This document shows positions 530 through 14,416 of a stretch of DNA of 26,784 nt, one piece after another. A model generated the notes under the pieces. That model was not told the DNA's origin and made no database searches. It was given only the letters and a program-made list of their open reading frames with translations. The stretch spans positions 1-26,784 of the forward strand of contig DENA01000003.1 of assembly GCA_002359465.1 (NCBI GenBank). Direction: 5' to 3'. The position numbers were made by a program, and so were the translations under genes. Numbering within the stretch: the stretch's first letter is position 1; every line of letters begins with the position of its first letter. The stretch comes from Ruminococcaceae bacterium UBA2656. Lineage in GTDB: Bacteria > Bacillota > Clostridia > Oscillospirales > Acutalibacteraceae.

Positions 530-1645
530 TTATTTTGCGCATCCCCTTTTTTTAAACATGAATGCCATAATCAGCAAAAAACATTCAAGCCCGGATTCAA
601 TAAACAGTGCAATAAAAGGAAAAGTATAATTAACAAAATTATATATGTCGGTACTGTTATCAAAAGAAGTAACTGTAATGATAAATGCCAACAAAGCGGA
701 AGGATATACGATGGGTTTATAGGTGCTTAAGCCCGCAATTTGTGCAGTGCCTAAACTAAATGCCCAAATTAAACTCATTGCCGATATAATACCTGCAGCA
801 ACGGATATCATCAGAAACATTGCCTCTAAACGTTCAAATACACCGCCAATGGAAACTATTTTTGCAAGCTGAAGACCAACGTTTGTCATAATTCCGGCCT
901 GCTCCGGGCCAAAAATGCAAATGCCCGAAATGACCTCTAATTCGAATATTACGGATCCCAGAGTAACGGAAATAAATTTTCCCTTAAAACCATTTTCGGG
1001 CTTACTGCAATAGGGAATGTACATACCCATAATAATGCAGATGCCTATATATGACAATAAAAACGGCGCGCCGCTCAAAAACGGAAAAATGCCCCGATAC
1101 AAAAGGGGCTTGAGACCATCAAGATTTATTAAAGGAGCCAGTGATACAAATAAAACAATAAAACCCAATAAATAAATCGGCCCCAGAAATGCAGATATCC
1201 TCGCAAATACTTTTAATCCTTTTTTAGCGCCGATTGCGATTAAAATGAAACAAAATGCGATTAGTACATTCAGAGGCGTTTCAGGAAAAAATGCGGTACC
1301 TAATAAGGTGCAGAGACTGCGTATTAAAACCGAGACCGATATTAAAAATAAAAAAATAAAGAGCGCGCCAATAAGCCTTCCGAAATATTTTCCTAAAACA
1401 GATATGCTGTATTGAACCATATTTTCTCCAGGAAAACGCCTTCCCATGTAAGCATAAACCACAGCCAATGCAACATCTGTCAGCCATGCGCAGATGACCG
1501 ACAGCCATGCGTCCTCGCCTGCGTGGGCAATCAGCATGCTTACTATTTGCAAAGTGGAGAAAGATGTTATGACGCTGAAAAGCAGCCATATATATTGTTT
1601 TGTCGTGATTGTATCTTTTTCCTGCATAATGAGCCAGCTTTCCAT
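530..1645 (-). CDS. Spore germination permease, GerAB/GerKB family
   Basis: A 371-residue, very hydrophobic protein with about ten predicted membrane helices and almost no soluble part. It matches the endospore germination permease (B subunit) type within the APC superfamily; in known receptors this subunit sits in the inner spore membrane and takes part in germinant recognition. Features that fit are the KQYIWLLFS start, the GRRFPGEN loop after the second helix and the hydrophilic CSKPENGFKGK loop near the middle. The first ATG (1645) has a poor ribosome site; the in-frame ATG at 1627 is preceded by GGAAAG and may be the true start. Neither the A subunit nor the lipoprotein C subunit is beside it. 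The germinant cannot be told from sequence. The gene starts 12 bases after the small membrane protein gene upstream and is probably cotranscribed with it. Confidence 0.85.
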   Translation of the reverse strand: MESWLIMQEKDTITTKQYIWLLFSVITSFSTLQIVSMLIAHAGEDAWLSVICAWLTDVALAVVYAYMGRRFPGENMVQYSISVLGKYFGRLIGALFIFLFLISVSVLIRSLCTLLGTAFFPETPLNVLIAFCFILIAIGAKKGLKVFARISAFLGPIYLLGFIVLFVSLAPLINLDGLKPLLYRGIFPFLSGAPFLLSYIGICIIMGMYIPYCSKPENGFKGKFISVTLGSVIFELEVISGICIFGPEQAGIMTNVGLQLAKIVSIGGVFERLEAMFLMISVAAGIISAMSLIWAFSLGTAQIAGLSTYKPIVYPSALLAFIITVTSFDNSTDIYNFVNYTFPFIALFIESGLECFLLIMAFMFKKRGCAK

Positions 1646-2255: not shown

Positions 2256-2585
2256 ATGGGAATGCCCGTCATTGTATCCGGCACCGAAACACGCTGCCAG
2301 GCAATTTCCGATATTATTGAGTCCGTTGCGTTGGAGCAGGCCGCTTTAGCGCATATCCTTAATGCAGAGGGAGAAAAGCTGCAAAAAATAGTAGCTACTG
2401 AAAGGGTTACTCCGGCACAGCTTTTGGATACGAACAAGAGTGTCAAAAAGGTAGTTGACTCCGTATCCCGTCTGGAGCTGGTCCTCCAGGCAAAATTAGA
2501 TCTGTTCAGTGATTGTGCCTGCGTGGAATGCGCTACCACTACAACCTCCACAACCTCAACGACGACAACTACTACGGAAGAATAG
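2256..2585 (+). CDS. HILNAEGEKLQ-module protein with Thr-rich tail
   Basis: 109 residues. The ATG at 2256 is chosen because GAAAGGTTGG precedes it and because the paralogue at 6500 starts with the same residues (MGMP) and the same leader. Residues 14-89 form the shared module: helix one with ALEQAALAHILNAEGEKLQ, a loop, and helix two with LLDTNKSV...SRLELVLQAKL, ending in DCAC. A further Cys (92) is followed by a tail at 94-107 of twelve Thr and two Ser, then EE. I recall a similar two-helix module from collagen-like and exosporium proteins of spore formers, but its function is not known to me. The Thr tail is a plausible O-glycosylation site, and the next gene is a glycosyltransferase. There is no signal peptide, as is usual for spore coat or exosporium proteins made in the mother cell. 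A strong hairpin follows the stop. Confidence 0.8.
   Translation: MGMPVIVSGTETRCQAISDIIESVALEQAALAHILNAEGEKLQKIVATERVTPAQLLDTNKSVKKVVDSVSRLELVLQAKLDLFSDCACVECATTTTSTTSTTTTTTEE
2295..2522 (+). repeat. HILNAEGEKLQ module, copy 1
   Basis: Codes for residues 14-89 of the Thr-tailed protein. It starts CQAISDIIES and ends FSDCAC. It is the same length, 76 residues with no gap, as copies 3 and 4. Confidence 0.85.
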
Positions 2586-2593
2586 CTAAGCGG

Positions 2594-2628
2594 AGAGGGC
2601 ATGGCGCAAAAGTGCCATGCCCTCTTTA
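2594..2628 (+). terminator. Strong hairpin between module protein and glycosyltransferase
   Basis: AGAGGGCATGGC (2594-2605) pairs perfectly with GCCATGCCCTCT (2614-2625) and is followed by TTTAAT. It lies directly in front of the AAGGAGG ribosome site of the next gene. It is probably a leaky terminator that gives much more of the small upstream protein than of the enzyme. Confidence 0.75.
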
Positions 2629-2645
2629 ATAAGGAGGTTTTTTGA

Positions 2646-3953
2646 TTGAAGGTAGCAATCCTGACGATGTTTTCCGGTCTTTCCAGCACCTATTCACTGG
2701 TGGGAGTGGTGGCCGACCAGCTCGAAATGCTGTTAAGTCATGGCATACCTGTCAAGCTTCTGGTTTCGGAGTATTGCCCTGACAGTGACCGGCCCGGCAT
2801 ATTTTCCGACACCAGAATTGAATGGGTGAAAATTAAAAGCAGTATAGACGGCAAACCAATTAAACTTTATGATTACGCGAACCCTGAAAGCAAGCTGCAC
2901 GAAACCTTTTACAGTGAGGCGGAGCTTTTCGCTGCAGAATTTGAAAAGGCTCTTAGCGATGTGGATGTGTGCATCATGCATGATATTCTTTATCAGGGAA
3001 CTCACTATGTACACAATATAGCAGTCCGAATGGCGCAGAAAAACTTGCCCAATGTGTGTTTTCTTTCATTTTCCCATTCGCTGCCCGTCAAGCGTCCTCT
3101 TAATGTAGGCAAGGAAATGTCGGGCAGATATACGCCCATGCCGAATACATTGTTTGTTTATCCGGGCCATTCGGGTATTACGGCACTTGCTCAGCAATAT
3201 AACGTCCCGGAGGGATATTGCAGAACGGTTTACAACTGCGCGCCCGTTATGGCGTATATGGATGAGTCCGTACAAAACCTGCACCGTCAAACCAGCCTGC
3301 TCAATACAGAATATATGATTGTCTATCCGGGGAGGCTTTCCACCGGAAAAAAATTTGAGAAGGTCGCCGCGTTGGCAGGGACTATCAAACGGATCTCCGA
3401 AAAAACCGTGAAGGTAGTGTTTTGCGATTTTCCCTGCGAGGATACTCCCGCTGACGATTACAAGGCTGCGATTTACTATGTGGGGGATTTTTACGGACTG
3501 GACAGGGACGATATCGTTTTCACAACCGACTGCGGATACCCGAAAGGATTTCCGCGTGCCGGCGTGCTGGATCTGTTTACACTTTCCAACTTATTTATTT
3601 GTCCGTCCCTTTCAGAAGCCTTTTCCGTCACGCTGCTGGAAGCGGCAAGCAGGGGAAACTTCTTGGTCTTAAACGAATGTGTCCCGGGTCTGCGTGAAGC
3701 GGGGGAACTGTTTGGCTCATATTTTATGAAATGGGATGCAAGAAATACGGACTTTACGATAAACCAGCAATACACACCCTCCGAACGGGCTTATTATGAA
3801 CGGCACAGTGCCGAAATTATTCAGATGATGCGGGAGGATAAGGTGTGCCTTGCAAAAACCATGATCCGCAAACGCTTCAATTATGAGTGGGTATGGGAAA
3901 ATCAGCTGAAGCCTCTCCTCTTCGGCTGCATTCCGGCTGAATCGCAGCAGTGA
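2646..3953 (+). CDS. Glycosyltransferase, GT4-like (GT-B fold)
   Basis: 435 residues from a TTG start, eight bases after a perfect AAGGAGG (2631-2637). The N-terminal half begins KVAILTMFSG and has DVCIMHDI, typical of the acceptor-side Rossmann domain. The C-terminal half has VYPGRLSTGKKFEK (donor-side start of GT4 enzymes) and the PSLSEAFSVTLLEAASRG segment, matching the E-x7-E donor-binding motif. It is expected to transfer a sugar from an activated donor; the sugar and acceptor are not evident. There is no signal or membrane segment, so it acts in the cytoplasm. Lying between two module proteins, and right after one with a Thr-rich tail, it most likely glycosylates one or more of these surface proteins, as linked glycosyltransferases do for exosporium glycoproteins. 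This last step is inference. Confidence 0.85.
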   Translation: MKVAILTMFSGLSSTYSLVGVVADQLEMLLSHGIPVKLLVSEYCPDSDRPGIFSDTRIEWVKIKSSIDGKPIKLYDYANPESKLHETFYSEAELFAAEFEKALSDVDVCIMHDILYQGTHYVHNIAVRMAQKNLPNVCFLSFSHSLPVKRPLNVGKEMSGRYTPMPNTLFVYPGHSGITALAQQYNVPEGYCRTVYNCAPVMAYMDESVQNLHRQTSLLNTEYMIVYPGRLSTGKKFEKVAALAGTIKRISEKTVKVVFCDFPCEDTPADDYKAAIYYVGDFYGLDRDDIVFTTDCGYPKGFPRAGVLDLFTLSNLFICPSLSEAFSVTLLEAASRGNFLVLNECVPGLREAGELFGSYFMKWDARNTDFTINQQYTPSERAYYERHSAEIIQMMREDKVCLAKTMIRKRFNYEWVWENQLKPLLFGCIPAESQQ

Positions 3954-4065
3954 CAGGCAGCTTATCAAAAACGCGGCAGTTTTTTGAAGTTCCTGCTGCC
4001 GCAGGTAACGGAATGAAATGGTTTGATATCTCCATCCAAAACAATATCACAATGCTATTTTTATT

Positions 4066-4074
4066 CATATCATA
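4066..4074 (+). promoter_or_regulatory. Possible mother-cell sporulation promoter (-10 CATATCATA)
   Basis: CATATCATA fits the sigma-K -10 pattern CATAnnnTA, and an AC at 4049-4050 lies 15 bases upstream, about one base short of the usual spacing. It is 49 bases before the ATG of the Cys-rich protein. The match is short and the region is AT-rich, so this is only a candidate. Confidence 0.25.
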
Positions 4075-4122
4075 TAGCATATAGGTAAAAAAGCATTTGA
4101 ACCGTTTAAGGAGAAAAAGATC

Positions 4123-5124
4123 ATGTTTAGAATAAAATCCGAAAAACCTCTGTCCTCTAAATGCCAGACCCGGTACAAGGGACTGGCATATGACGGCTGC
4201 TGGTTTTATCTTACTGTATATTGCGAGTGCAGGGTCGTACGTTTTGACTCCTGCTTCCATGAGGAGAAAAGCTTTGATACTTGCAGATGCTACCGCTGCA
4301 TTTGCTACGATTTGAAAGAAAAGTGTTTCTGGGCGTCGGACAGTCAATGTCTGTCCACCGTATTTAAGTTGGATGAATGCTTTCATGAAATTGATTCTAT
4401 CCGTATCCGCTCCTCTGACAGATGCGGCGGCCTGGTAACCGGAATTTCATATAACTGCTGTGATGATAGCCTTCTGGTTTCCTTTGCCGGAGGTGTCGTA
4501 TGTGTCAACAAACAACATCCGGAAAAAAGCCGCACGCTGGCAGAAACCTGTCGCGAGTGGATTCTTGGCCTTGTTTCCGTTTGTCCGTATTATATTATCT
4601 ACAGCGTTTCAGAACAGAAAAAAACAATCCGCGTCTGCTGCCACAACGGAAGGCCTATTAAGGAAATCTGCGTTCCGGGTGAAATGATTATTGAGTCAGC
4701 GGTTTTCTTCCCTTGTGCAAAGGACTGTTCTGACTGTCACTTTTATGTTTTGATATCTAAACATGGCTGTTATCCCTATCTCCTGGACTGCATCATGGAA
4801 TGTGATGCAATATGCGACGGAATATGTGACTGCAATTATAAAATATGTGATAGGGACTGCAATGAAAATTGTGAACACAAAAAGTGCTGCTGCGATGTGA
4901 TGGAATCCATTGCTTTACAGGAAGCCTCCCTCGCGCATATCCTGAATGCAGAGGGAGAAAAACTGCAGAAGACGATTTCCTCTACTGACGACATACGCAA
5001 AATTTTAGAAGTAAACAGGTCGGTCAACAAGACGATTATAAACGCTACCCATTTGGAGCATATATTATACGCTAAGCTGGAAGCTCTGGATGATTGCTGT
5101 GACTTCTGTGAAAACGACAGGTGA
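4123..5124 (+). CDS. Cys-rich beta-propeller-like protein with C-terminal HILNAEGEKLQ module
   Basis: 333 residues with AAGGAG nine bases before the ATG. I count 39 Cys, about one in nine, spread through the whole chain. Residues 1 to about 220 show propeller-like strands (GLAYDGCWFYLTV, CYDLKEKCFWASD, GISYNCCDDSLLVSF) that line up with the start of the next gene's product (GIAFDGTALYTT, YYDALENVFWGGG), so both seem to derive from one ancestor. A knot of Cys follows at about 223-257 (CDAICDGICDC, CNENCEHKKCCC). Residues 257-333 are the shared module (ALQEASLAHILNAEGEKLQ) ending DDCCDFC. No signal peptide is visible. Cys-rich proteins of this kind in spore coats and exosporia form disulfide-linked layers, so a structural, self-crosslinking role is a reasonable guess. 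An enzymatic role looks unlikely. Confidence 0.75.
   Translation: MFRIKSEKPLSSKCQTRYKGLAYDGCWFYLTVYCECRVVRFDSCFHEEKSFDTCRCYRCICYDLKEKCFWASDSQCLSTVFKLDECFHEIDSIRIRSSDRCGGLVTGISYNCCDDSLLVSFAGGVVCVNKQHPEKSRTLAETCREWILGLVSVCPYYIIYSVSEQKKTIRVCCHNGRPIKEICVPGEMIIESAVFFPCAKDCSDCHFYVLISKHGCYPYLLDCIMECDAICDGICDCNYKICDRDCNENCEHKKCCCDVMESIALQEASLAHILNAEGEKLQKTISSTDDIRKILEVNRSVNKTIINATHLEHILYAKLEALDDCCDFCENDR
4891..5109 (+). repeat. HILNAEGEKLQ module, copy 2
   Basis: Codes for residues 257-329 of the Cys-rich protein. It is the most divergent copy: QE replaces EQ in helix one, THLEHILYAKL stands in helix two, and the start is shorter by a few residues. Confidence 0.8.
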
Positions 5125-5165
5125 AGCAAACGGATGCGATCCGTGGCGGAATATCCGCCCTTGTG

Positions 5166-5210
5166 GAGCAAACGTGGTAATTTTGCCGCCCCCCGTTTGC
5201 TCACTTTTTT
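5166..5210 (+). terminator. Rho-independent terminator after Cys-rich protein gene
   Basis: GAGCAAACG (5166-5174) pairs with CGTTTGCTC (5194-5202), followed by AC and six T. It separates this gene from the next, which implies a separate promoter for the next gene or partial read-through. Confidence 0.75.
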
Positions 5211-5275
5211 AAAGTTGCGGGAATACAATGGCGTGGAGACTTTGTCTACTACTACCAATCAAAGGAGATTGCTAT

Positions 5276-6328
5276 ATGGCAATTGGAGATATCCTAAGAG
5301 AGTTTAATGTTCCGGCACAGGCATCCGGCAACGGCAGGGGAATCGCTTTTGACGGAACGGCATTATACACCACAATCACAGCTTCCACCGACATCTTTAA
5401 GATGGATCTGAACGGCAATTATCTTGCTACCATTCCATCCGCGCACGTCTATGGCGCGCTGTACTATGACGCTTTGGAAAATGTATTCTGGGGCGGCGGC
5501 TATGAGGGACTTTATACGCTTTATAAGGTTGCGCTTAATGGAACGGTTCTTCAAACCATCAACTACCAGTCCATTATTCCCGCCGCCCTGCTCAGTCAGG
5601 ATCCGTTCCCCGCTTATGTGGACGGCATAACTGTTGACCCCGCCACCAATACCATCTGGTTTTCGACCGACCTGGGCAGCAACGTATACAACATTTCAAA
5701 GGCGGGTGTTTATATCGGATTCATCCCGGCACCCCTGCCAAATTCCGGTGTTACGACCGACGGCACCAATTTATGGCTTGCCTTCGCCGACAATCCCACA
5801 CCCATTCTGAAAAAGCTTTCAACAACAGGAACAGAGCTTGAAACGGTTGATATCAATGTAACCGGACAATATCAAATCGAGGACATTGAGTACGACAGCG
5901 TTACCTTTGCGCCAAAATGTGCTGTTTGGGCAATTAATGCCACATTTGACACTCCGGTTGTCCGCGCCATCGAGGTGCCCTGTAACAGCGTTTCCCGTTT
6001 TCAGGCGATTACCGATATGATCGAATCGGTTGCCCTTGAACAGACCGCCCTTTCCCATATCCTCAATGCGGAGGGGGAAAAGCTGCAGAGGTTTCTGCCT
6101 CTGGCGGGCAATGACCAAACGCTTGTCCTGAAGGCCAATCGTTCGGTGGAGTCTACAATCAATTCCATTTCAAGGCTGGAGCTGGTGCTTCAGGGTAAGC
6201 TGGGCATTTTCAATGATTGCCTCTGCCCTCCGGCCACCGATGATTTACTAGGCGGAAACAGCCGGAAGCTTTTGGCGTCTCTCAACAGCGATCCTGCCTT
6301 TGCAGCTTCAAAACCACCCAAAATCTAA
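5276..6328 (+). CDS. Beta-propeller protein with C-terminal HILNAEGEKLQ module
   Basis: 350 residues. The ATG at 5276 follows AAAGGAG; an earlier in-frame ATG at 5228 lacks a ribosome site. Residues about 1-235 carry repeated strand patterns of an SMP-30/NHL-like propeller: GIAFDGTALYTT, YYDALENVFWGGG, GITVDPATNTIWFSTD, GVTTDGTNLWLAFAD and DIEYDSVTFAPKCAVWAI, each an Asp followed by a W/Y-rich strand. Residues 242-317 are the module (ALEQTALSHILNAEGEKLQ) ending NDCLC. A tail of about 30 residues (LLGGNSRKLLASLNSDPAF) closes the protein. Unlike its Cys-rich neighbour it has only a handful of Cys. There is no signal peptide. Propellers often bind ligands or carry out lactonase-type chemistry, but I see no assured active site. 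Inferred role: a displayed binding domain anchored by the module. Confidence 0.78.
   Translation: MAIGDILREFNVPAQASGNGRGIAFDGTALYTTITASTDIFKMDLNGNYLATIPSAHVYGALYYDALENVFWGGGYEGLYTLYKVALNGTVLQTINYQSIIPAALLSQDPFPAYVDGITVDPATNTIWFSTDLGSNVYNISKAGVYIGFIPAPLPNSGVTTDGTNLWLAFADNPTPILKKLSTTGTELETVDINVTGQYQIEDIEYDSVTFAPKCAVWAINATFDTPVVRAIEVPCNSVSRFQAITDMIESVALEQTALSHILNAEGEKLQRFLPLAGNDQTLVLKANRSVESTINSISRLELVLQGKLGIFNDCLCPPATDDLLGGNSRKLLASLNSDPAFAASKPPKI
5999..6226 (+). repeat. HILNAEGEKLQ module, copy 3
   Basis: Codes for residues 242-317 of the propeller protein. The DNA of its core is very close to copy 4 (both contain gaacagaccgccct), pointing to a fairly recent duplication. Confidence 0.85.
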
Positions 6329-6345
6329 CCTCTTTTAGATGCCGG

Positions 6346-6376
6346 ACAGACGTGCGCATTTTCTGCGCACGTCTGT
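6346..6376 (+). terminator. Hairpin after propeller protein gene
   Basis: ACAGACGTGCGCA (6346-6358) pairs perfectly with TGCGCACGTCTGT (6364-6376); the loop is TTTTC. The following T run is interrupted (TTGCGTTTC), so it may terminate only partly. Confidence 0.65.
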
Positions 6377-6499
6377 TGCGTTTCACAGAAACCCTCTTGA
6401 CCCAGCGCATGCCACAAGATATGAGGGACGCGCATATGATGTGCTGAGCAGGTTATGAAACCTGCTGTTTCCAAGAAAAAATTGAAAGGTTGAATTTTT

Positions 6500-7243
6500 A
6501 TGGGAATGCCTATCATTGTACCCGGCAACGCAACGCGCTGCCAGGCCGTTTCCGATATCATCGCGTCTGTAGCACTGGAACAGACCGCCCTATCCCACAT
6601 TCTTAATGCGGAAGGGGAAAAGCTGCAAACGGCCGTATCGGGAACAGATATTGCTTCGGCACAGCTTTTGGAAACGGAAAAAAGCGTAGGGAATATGGTC
6701 GACGCCATATCCCGCCTGGAAATTATTCTGCAGTCCAAGCTTGCATTGTTCGGCGGGTGTATCTGTATCCCGGGTATAACGAACGGCAGCTTTGAAAATG
6801 ATTTTGAAGGATGGACACTACAGACTCCTTCTGGAGCAACATCAGAAACAGTAACCAATTTTGACACGTATAATCCCATCAGCGGCAGCTATTTCGCGCT
6901 GTTAAAAACGGATGGGGCGGGGAACTACAATATATTGGGACAAGAATTTAGCGCAAACATCGGCGATAAAATCAGCGGCTGGTCATTTTTCTATGATGCT
7001 GAGGGCGGATCGTCTGTTTTCAATGACAACTGCAGCGTAGTAATTAAATCAAATAACTCTGTAATTGCCACCCCGTTCAGTGCAAGCTCGGCTACTACCA
7101 GCACAACACCATGGACACAATGGGAGTACACGTTTAATACCGCCGGTAAATTCACCGTTGAAGCATCTATTGCCAACGGTGGAGATCCTACGGTTGACAG
7201 TTATATGGGAATGGATGCGGTTCAACTGATTCCAATTTGCTGA
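6500..7243 (+). CDS. HILNAEGEKLQ-module protein with C-terminal jelly-roll-like domain
   Basis: 247 residues. Start ATG 6500 with the leader ATTGAAAGGTTG, shared with the gene at 2256. Residues 1-13 (MGMPIIVPGNATR) and the module at 14-89 (ALEQTALSHILNAEGEKLQ, ending GGCIC) correspond position by position to the Thr-tailed protein, but here the C-terminal part is about 155 residues long. It opens ITNGSFENDFEGWTLQT, the usual start of carbohydrate-binding-like jelly-roll domains (NGSFE..GW), continues with beta-strand sequence (GDKISGWSFFYDAEGG, WTQWEYTFNTAGKFTVEA) and ends DSYMGMDAVQLIPIC. Thus the module can sit at either end of a protein. Likely role: a surface protein binding carbohydrate or another ligand; the ligand is unknown. 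It is the last gene of the cluster, followed by a strong terminator. Confidence 0.8.
   Translation: MGMPIIVPGNATRCQAVSDIIASVALEQTALSHILNAEGEKLQTAVSGTDIASAQLLETEKSVGNMVDAISRLEIILQSKLALFGGCICIPGITNGSFENDFEGWTLQTPSGATSETVTNFDTYNPISGSYFALLKTDGAGNYNILGQEFSANIGDKISGWSFFYDAEGGSSVFNDNCSVVIKSNNSVIATPFSASSATTSTTPWTQWEYTFNTAGKFTVEASIANGGDPTVDSYMGMDAVQLIPIC
6539..6766 (+). repeat. HILNAEGEKLQ module, copy 4
   Basis: Codes for residues 14-89 of the jelly-roll protein. It begins CQAVSDIIAS and ends FGGCIC. Confidence 0.85.
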
Positions 7244-12751: not shown

Positions 12752-14416
12752 TTATCCCAGTATGCCAAGCGCATATCCGGCGACGCCGACAAACATCAGA
12801 CCGAAAATGATATAGGTGGGCTTTACCTTCTTTTTCAGCAGCCAGTAAACAAAGAAGGTCAGCGCGAGCGGCAAAAGGTTTGGCATGATGGCATTTAGCT
12901 GGTCCTGTATGGTTGTCGTGACGGTCTTGCCGCTGACAACAAAGGAATACAGCTGAACGGGGATATTGATCGTAGTCCAGCGCGCGACCAGACCGCCGAT
13001 GACGGTGTAGGCAAGGACCGAAATGGCCTTGACGAACTTTTGCTCTCCGCCATGGAACATGGAGATGAAGCTGGTTCCCTGTTTATAAGGAAGAATCAGT
13101 CCGTAATATCTTACGAATACTCTGATAATGTTAAAGGCCAAAAAGAAAAAGATTGGTCCCATCAGATTGCCCTGAGAGGCAATTCCGGCGGCGATTGCCG
13201 CAAACATCGGTCTTAAAATTCCCCAGAATACGGAATCGCCGATTCCCGCGAAGGGGCCCATCAGAGCCACCTTTGTGCTCGTAATTGCTTCTTCGGTAAT
13301 GCCGGAACCATGAACCATGGATTCCTCCATCGCTGCGTTAACACCCAGAACAGGGGAGGCCATGATGGGGTTTGTGTTGAAATATTCCATATGCCGTGTA
13401 AGTGCTGTGGACAGTTCTTCTTTCTCCGGATACAGCCTTTTTAAAATCGGTACCATGCAGTAGCAGTAGCAAAGGTTCTGGAATCTCTCATAGGTCCAGG
13501 AAACCTGATAGAACTGAGTGCGGAGAAACACCTTCATCAAATCGCTTTTCGTAAGCTTTTTGCCGTCATCCACGGCGCTTTCCGCCACCGGTGAAGCGGA
13601 TTGCGAAGCGTCTGAAATTGAGGCTTCGGGCGCGGCCGCGCCATCCCTGCTTCTTACTTTTCTGCCGCCGGCGTTTGCCGCGGATTTATCAAGGAACAGG
13701 TAATAAATCACGGCGAAGCAAATTCCTACAATGGATAGAGCAATTAAAGTCATATCATGGGAGAAGGTCATGATCAGAAAGCCGATAAAGAAAAACGGTA
13801 AAATATCCTTACGGTTAATCTGTTTTAAAACCATTGCGTAGCCCACGACGACCAGAAAACCGGCGGTAACCTGCAAACCGCCGGTAATAACCTTTGGTAT
13901 GCCGTTAAACATATTCTGCGCAAAAGACGCACTTGCAAAACATGCGACCAGCGCTGTCGGCAGCGCGACCCTGAGCGCGCTGGGGACCGCCGTCAGCCAA
14001 TGGGCAAAGCCGATGCCCCGGGTATTTCCTTCTCTTGCGAACTTGTCTCCCAAATGAACAATCGCGACTTCAATTGTGCTGAGCTGAACAATCTGCAGAA
14101 GCTGGCCCGCAACCGCAACAGGGATGGCAATCCCAACCGCGACACCGACATTGACATGACCGAGAATAGCCAAAACGGCGGCGACGGTACCTGCAAGGGC
14201 AGGGTCCGGGGGAGAGGCGGCTCCCACTGTCATCCAGCCCAAGGCAATGAGCTCAACTGCCGCCCCTACCATGACACCGGTTGTTACGTCGCCAAGCGCG
14301 ATACCTACCAAAGTTGCCGATATGATCGGGTGGTGCGTCTGGAACTCTTCACTTGCCGCGCCTATGCCTGAAATCGAAGTTACGATAATTAGAAAAATAA
14401 ACTGCAAAGTTGTCAC
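12752..14416 (-). CDS. PTS mannose-family fused EIIC-EIID
   Basis: 554 residues from a GTG start at 14416 (AGGGGTG upstream). Residues 1-243 are a complete mannose-type EIIC (ISGIGAASEEFQTHHPIISATLVGIALGD, GAAVELIALGWMTVGAASPPDP). Residues 244-287 are a hydrophilic Ala/Ser-rich linker. Residues 288-554 are a complete EIID (LTKSDLMKVFLRTQFYQ, SWTYERFQNL, MEYFNTNPIMASPVLGV, GPFAGIGDSVFWG). The two subunits form the membrane channel for sugar uptake and are usually separate proteins (ManY and ManZ); a single chain is unusual. No stop or frameshift is seen in the linker. It is preceded 13 bases upstream by EIIB. Confidence 0.9.
   Translation of the reverse strand: MTTLQFIFLIIVTSISGIGAASEEFQTHHPIISATLVGIALGDVTTGVMVGAAVELIALGWMTVGAASPPDPALAGTVAAVLAILGHVNVGVAVGIAIPVAVAGQLLQIVQLSTIEVAIVHLGDKFAREGNTRGIGFAHWLTAVPSALRVALPTALVACFASASFAQNMFNGIPKVITGGLQVTAGFLVVVGYAMVLKQINRKDILPFFFIGFLIMTFSHDMTLIALSIVGICFAVIYYLFLDKSAANAGGRKVRSRDGAAAPEASISDASQSASPVAESAVDDGKKLTKSDLMKVFLRTQFYQVSWTYERFQNLCYCYCMVPILKRLYPEKEELSTALTRHMEYFNTNPIMASPVLGVNAAMEESMVHGSGITEEAITSTKVALMGPFAGIGDSVFWGILRPMFAAIAAGIASQGNLMGPIFFFLAFNIIRVFVRYYGLILPYKQGTSFISMFHGGEQKFVKAISVLAYTVIGGLVARWTTINIPVQLYSFVVSGKTVTTTIQDQLNAIMPNLLPLALTFFVYWLLKKKVKPTYIIFGLMFVGVAGYALGILG

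Follow-up and report, generated by a model that had tools for sequence, protein, structure and literature searches.

Four clustered genes of Ruminococcaceae bacterium UBA2656 share a spore-silk subunit domain and probably encode an A-ENA-type spore appendage with fused partner proteins

The closest described counterparts of the gene cluster treated here are endospore appendages (ENAs). The A-ENA or "spore silk" type is already known and deposited as 9IHH (released 2026-03-04); by its title it is a spore fibre, and the deposited subunit is one 101-residue chain. F-ENAs follow a similar logic, as laid out in the sections of PMC11952670 drawn on here, with a small subunit (DUF4183), an anchor (F-Anchor) that joins other domains to the subunit domain, and F-BclA, together with a collagen-like tip and putative O-glycans. 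The S-ENAs of Bacillus paranthracis, according to the corresponding sections of PMC12921279, are expressed late in the mother cell and anchored by Ena1C, whose gene lies opposite the subunit gene ena1B. Here we analyze a 26,784-nucleotide stretch of contig DENA01000003.1 (the window) from Ruminococcaceae bacterium UBA2656 (GCA_002359465.1), in which four open reading frames (ORFs) within 5 kb share a module of ~80 residues. We consider it likely that this cluster encodes an A-ENA-type spore appendage and proteins that plug into it. What computation adds to the known fibre type is a predicted repertoire of fused proteins, three fusion modes, a candidate anchor and a linked enzyme. Compared to 9IHH, the window also has the subunit domain fused to a jelly-roll and to propellers, with a glycosyltransferase alongside; compared to F-ENAs, the subunit is helical and the fused partners are wide-ranging, and DUF4183 had no match in the window's own genome (assembly 85.9% complete). 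The cluster contains the following features.

2256..2585, + strand: gene 1, a stand-alone module with an MGMP leader and a C-terminal Thr/Ser tail; likely the main A-ENA-type fibre subunit (9IHH match)
2646..3953, + strand: GT4-type glycosyltransferase, linked to module loci (PF00534)
4123..5124, + strand: gene 3, a Cys-rich beta-propeller with a C-terminal module; candidate basal anchor (AF2 model, propeller matches)
5276..6328, + strand: gene 4, a Cys-poor propeller with a C-terminal module (homology to gene 3)
6414..6441, + strand: sigma-K-type promoter 5' of gene 5 (AC, 17 nt, CATATGATG)
6500..7243, + strand: gene 5, an N-terminal module with an MGMP leader, then a jelly-roll like that of a carbohydrate-binding module (CBM) (AF2 model, beta-sandwich matches)

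The ORF list starts gene 4 at 5228; we chose the ATG at 5276, which is preceded by AAAGGAG. A fifth module gene, with a different partner of ~120 residues, lies on contig C39 of the same genome (L005 1405-2073). When the five modules were aligned, identity to gene 1 ranged from 44 to 74%, and 26 columns were invariant, including HILNAEGEKLQ and a C-x-C. A degenerate motif of the module had five matches in the genome and none for the reversed control. An earlier reading of the window (the original prediction) had proposed a single module common to four genes within 5 kb and placed C-terminally in two and N-terminally in two, and both points hold. It had also described an ending in a Cys pair, which fits the genome's five copies but is less general, since such a pair was found in only 70 of the 135 modules with a readable motif in 76 loci. 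These belong to a sample built from the best 80 of 472 confirmed contig stretches, which gave 77 loci, or 78 with the window, and 143 module genes read, window included.

E-values of the module's matches to itself come from profiles made of the same sequences; the independent search is that of gene 5 against 5.8 billion proteins, which retrieved gene 4 (E=1.1e-15) as well as the C39 protein (1.6e-27). A five-module search returned 3793 proteins from 5003 candidates (E<=0.001, 0.55-1.75 times the query length). The precomputed label PF26595, which is not named in the literature searched, was present on 120 of 120 among the matches listed, as well as on three proteins 100% identical to genes 1, 4 and 5 (P0001, P0121 and P0236). 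In family searches, gene 1 had no Pfam match and its NCBIfam matches were all below cut-off. Matches to TIGR02293, NF038132, SGL, HopQ and GCN4 were set aside as weak, under cut-offs or likely due to chance.

Against solved structures, a 50-sequence profile of the module matched chain A of 9IHH ("Ex vivo spore-silk A-ENA fibers") at E=1.2e-21, with the next match at 0.055. Gene 1 alone reached 9IHH at E=8.2e-16, its residues 1-82 aligning with residues 1-86 of the 101-residue chain, MGMP leader included. The module forms two long helices in the AF2 models of genes 3 and 5, and residues 1-91 of the gene 5 model could be aligned with 9IHH over 90 of its 94 residues (VIA-align; root-mean-square deviation 5.0, 37% identity). 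In structural searches, 9IHH was outside the 50 matches listed by Foldseek and stood 41st in another listing. The literature searched, which covered sources other than bioRxiv, contained no paper on a spore-silk fibre and none that mentions A-ENA alongside either endospore appendages or spores with appendages. Since the module matches the 9IHH subunit, we read it as an endospore-appendage subunit domain, more than a mere tag. The original prediction of an anchoring or co-assembly tag therefore stands in part: fused copies could co-assemble into a fibre, and the identity of the module as a spore-fibre subunit domain had been missed. Because the module corresponds to the subunit domain of a spore fibre that is already deposited, the gene 1 product is more likely the polymer than a further displayed protein, and we infer that fibres form in this species.

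The spore was originally proposed as the most likely location of these proteins, and a search across genomes for restriction of the module to spore formers was suggested. SpoIVA was found above cut-off in 46 of the 50 named carriers tested (of 77 loci), including each of the 12 isolates (as judged by title); of the remaining four, three have Spo0A and L040 has neither. Cultured carriers include Butyricicoccus pullicaecorum DSM 23266 (L016) and Intestinimonas butyriciproducens An565 (L019). In the phylum of one relative, L041, the module occurs in 15 of 392 genomes and SpoIVA, above cut-off, in 68; each of the 13 carriers found at E<1e-8 is among the latter. Two marginal hits, G508 (E=8.2e-4) and G524 (2.6e-4), have neither SpoIVA nor Spo0A and were treated as chance. 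The association is significant (p=1.6e-9, or 9.1e-8 if both marginal hits are counted as carriers); both values leave out G461, the centre, and G473, a previously known carrier, and are uncorrected for shared ancestry. Even spread among non-sporulators, named at the outset as an outcome that would speak against a spore role, was thus not seen in this phylum. The window's own phylum is uninformative here: the module is present in 36 of 398 genomes and SpoIVA in 340, and SpoIVA was found in 34 of 36 carriers versus 306 of 362 others (p=0.08), a difference short of significance in a phylum where most genomes sporulate. The two carriers without SpoIVA do have Spo0A, and the window's own genome has both.

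Two side observations concern SpoIVA. Besides a whole copy (C6:29007-29717), the window's genome holds a second match in two overlapping pieces (G000:C3:447-1135), either a broken paralogue or a sign of strain mixture in the assembly. SpoIVA and module genes also occur together in six metagenome-assembled genomes titled Bacilli or Tenericutes, with assemblies of only 1.1-1.3 Mb (L066, L069, L073, L076, L077 and L078).

If the module instead belonged to a vegetative cell-surface or secreted appendage with no relation to spores, the thioester, CshA, SdrD_B and choice-of-anchor domains found among its partners would be expected, as these are usually parts of vegetative surface proteins. However, no LPxTG was found in the last 60 residues of the 143 module proteins, and signal-like N-termini, assigned by a crude hydrophobicity rule, were present in only 6 of 143 versus 153 of 647 other genes, in line with the original statement that signal peptides are missing. 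Choice-of-anchor A/G proteins usually carry a signal peptide and a C-terminal anchor; in the module relatives with their domains (TIGR04215 and NF033766), these were not seen and the module stands in their place. Together with the bias to spore formers and the promoter signature described below, these findings make a vegetative appendage very improbable.

To characterize the promoters, we compared 128 regions upstream of module genes (143 before removal of near-duplicates), which come from related genomes and are hence not independent, with those of 621 other genes in the same loci. The pattern CATANNNTA was present in 38% of the module regions versus 5% of controls and 6% of shuffles, and the word CATA..ATA was found de novo (35 versus 3.7 expected) beside ribosome-binding-site and terminator-like words. 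Of 74 sites, 42 lie 45-74 bases 5' of the start codon. An AC at a spacing of 16 or 17 accompanies 43 of the 66 sites with enough upstream sequence, while at any other spacing between 8 and 25 an AC is present in 1-6 sites; among control sites, 9 of 51 have the AC at 16 or 17, 7 of them at 17. Altogether, the two-part motif was found in 44 of 128 module regions versus 9 of 621 controls; the 44 comprise 25 of 66 leader-bearing and 19 of 62 other module genes. It recurred in a further set of 39 loci (13 of 58 versus 3 of 71), also after three regions overlapping the discovery set were removed (11 of 55 versus 3 of 71, p=0.006).

In Clostridioides difficile, as described in the parts of PMC3789822 cited here, sigma-E and sigma-K share the same -10 element and differ at -35, with ATA versus AC, and bclA1-3 belong to the sigma-K regulon. 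By this comparison, the AC at -35 spacing with the shared -10 is a sigma-K pattern. A sigma-E reading was rejected, as ATA was not enriched at the -35 spacing. The promoter signature suggests late mother-cell expression of the module genes and accords with a location on the spore surface. Within the window, the gene 5 promoter fits the two-part motif exactly and is the only one of the module genes to do so. Gene 1 has a sigma-K-like -10, CATATCATG, at -77 with the AC at a spacing of 18, one base off; the gene 3 site also deviates by one base in spacing, the C39 gene shows AC-N17-CATA and an incomplete -10, and gene 4 has no sigma-K-type site near its start. Two further exact matches to the motif in the window (17104, + strand; 8170, - strand) lie at no module gene.

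The same spore link would be expected if the module were a static docking domain of the coat or exosporium, with each protein binding separately to a common spore receptor and no fibre formed in many species. A short stand-alone copy, as expected of a polymer subunit, was present in 59 of 76 loci, and the nearest solved relative is by title a fibre, both of which argue against static docking. One observation counts against our own preferred reading. Only fused copies were in view in 17 of 76 loci, 9 of which extend more than 3 kb on both sides, as static docking would allow; because these nine are not cut off by contig ends, we slightly lowered our confidence in a fibre. Weighing these points, we regard static docking as quite unlikely and an A-ENA-type appendage as the probable product of the cluster.

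A leader of the type M[GS]MP is present in 72 of the 83 modules close to the N-terminus (within 100 residues) and in 1 of the 52 located farther in, a case where the start is likely wrong; C-terminal copies therefore lack an element of the 9IHH subunit. Gene 3 carries such a leader-less module behind a propeller with 33 Cys in residues 1-250. Its AF2 model (mean pLDDT 89.7) consists of strands followed by helices 250-287 and 291-332, and propeller structures were among the matches of this model. The gene 4 propeller has only 4 Cys, which agrees with the original distinction between Cys-rich and Cys-poor propellers, but the two are homologous and not unrelated partners: phmmer, the independent search, gave E=5.8e-4, and a gene-3-type profile built from 11 of 12 other loci, gene 4 left out, found gene 4 at 3.4e-10. 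Among the loci fetched via the module, relatives of the gene 3 propeller were found in 12 others (phmmer E 4.4e-50 to 1.7e-10), all 12 with the module on the same ORF. In 11 of these 12, the gene is divergent from a leader-bearing module gene, at less than 300 bases in 10 of them; in the window, genes 1 and 3 instead share a strand and flank the glycosyltransferase. The gene 4 propeller is common to P0122-P0129, with PF26595 in 7 of 8. Among relatives of this propeller without the module label, P0165 has a signal-like N-terminus, and P0128, P0241 and P0242 do not.

Since gene 3 is Cys-rich and has a C-terminal leader-less module, we propose it as the best candidate for a cross-linked base from which the fibre starts. 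The parts of PMC11952670 cited here describe the C-terminal subunit domain of F-Anchor as thought to initiate F-ENA. Ena1C is a ring of subunit-like fold, whereas gene 3 combines the subunit domain with a propeller; its orientation in the window also differs from that of the anchor gene ena1C. It may be asked whether all fused proteins serve only at the base, as anchors or platforms for assembly in the manner of F-Anchor, with no display at tip or shaft. This would agree with F-Anchor-3, which combines subunit domains with DUF11 and a CsxA-like domain (PMC11952670), and with the divergent placement of the Cys-rich gene-3 types in 11 of 12 loci, which resembles ena1C and ena1B in the cited sections of PMC12921279. 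On the other hand, this one locus encodes several different fused proteins, and domains of binding type (CBM-like fold, CshA, thioester, BclA_C/collagen) occur among the passengers, so we consider a purely basal role unlikely.

The passengers of the module vary widely, and they are of kinds typical of surfaces, which speaks for the appendage reading. In gene 5 (AF2 model, mean pLDDT 72.8), helices 13-47 and 53-83 are followed by strands 133-244, and beta-sandwich structures match this C-terminal part, which has a CBM-like fold. Family searches with 10 chosen module proteins identified choice-of-anchor A, choice-of-anchor G, SdrD_B, DUF11, VWA, DUF6923 and collagen with BclA_C, and 2 of the 10 had no family match. 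Precomputed labels and source names added thioester (PF08341), CshA-type (PF18651), SpaA (PF17802) and LRR (PF13306) domains. The module is fused to collagen and BclA_C in L085 and P0313, which bears out the originally noted link of a related module to collagen-like exosporium proteins and resembles the collagen-like BclA nap of the exosporium, whereas the window's proteins had no match to collagen or BclA_C up to E=1. In 15 of 314 fetched proteins, all labeled PF08341, a thioester domain lies between helix 1 and helix 2, as an insert of ~291 residues where 16-18 are usual. The two-helix domain is thus placed before, after or around its passengers, in three fusion modes. Whether spore silk is a modular display fibre, its hairpin domain being N-terminal, C-terminal or split around a thioester, we judge to be evenly balanced.

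The glycosyltransferase between gene 1 and gene 3 matched PF00534 at E=7.3e-7. Counting the window, 27 of the 78 loci contain a relative of it, in every case with the orientation of the closest module gene, so that the originally proposed association of the cluster with its own glycosyltransferase is upheld. The relative is in pieces in L025, L029, L049 and L070, and truncated in L071. At a threshold of at least 380 bits, the enzyme was present in 5 of 40 module-bearing genomes, one of them the window's own, versus 0 of 40 module-free genomes, 16 of which were classed so from an earlier module search; in the five, it lies within ~2 kb of a module gene when places are compared by eye. With 35 of 40 carriers lacking it, the enzyme is confined to part of the clusters. 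Its likely target would be the Thr tail of gene 1, as a site of O-glycosylation, and putative O-glycans have been reported on F-ENA-4 fibres (PMC11952670). An apparent fusion of module and glycosyltransferase in L071 was set aside as a deletion or assembly join and not used as evidence, since the join falls inside both domains: the module ends near the close of helix 2 and the enzyme is without its first 144 residues.

Taken as a mechanism, the module would be a two-helix hairpin produced late in the mother cell under sigma-K, and the gene 1 product would polymerize into a fibre, with the glycosyltransferase O-glycosylating its Thr tail. The modules on the products of genes 3-5 would enter this fibre via subunit contacts. 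Gene 3 would provide the cross-linked base that initiates it, as F-Anchor and Ena1C do in other ENAs, while genes 4 and 5 would contribute a propeller and a CBM-like fold, respectively, either at the tip or along the shaft.

If modular display is correct, spore formers could exchange passengers of carbohydrate-binding, covalent-bonding and adhesive type on one appendage, as sortase motifs allow on vegetative surfaces. Many gut Clostridia persist and spread as spores, and their spore surface proteins are largely unassigned. With one recognizable domain and a sigma-K signature, proteins annotated as "hypothetical" or "choice-of-anchor" would become candidate spore-fibre components. The module gives a list of possible spore cargo, and anchor, shaft and tip roles become testable in non-pathogenic isolates.

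A phage origin was considered and rejected, as gene 1 had no match in 50,697 phage records. Seven IMG/VR contigs (L135-L141) encode module relatives and may be phage or misassigned bacterial DNA. A plasmid record of Bacillus velezensis (L146, NZ_CP083716.1) encodes a protein annotated as "collagen-like" with a 41% match to the 9IHH subunit and a glycosyltransferase gene adjoining. To the left of the cluster, the window contains two further features.

292-377: tRNA-Tyr (GTA), at the window's left end
530..1645, - strand: GerAB-type spore germination permease, pointing away from gene 1 (PF03845 E=4e-41; TIGR00912 above cut-off)

Germination genes had been said to adjoin the cluster; the permease is indeed of the GerAB type, but it is a single gene, possibly an orphan, as no GerAA or GerAC was apparent in the ORF list by eye, with no profile search made. 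Farther along, at 12752-14416, one ORF of 554 residues resembles, by eye, a fused IIC and IID of a mannose-type phosphotransferase system.

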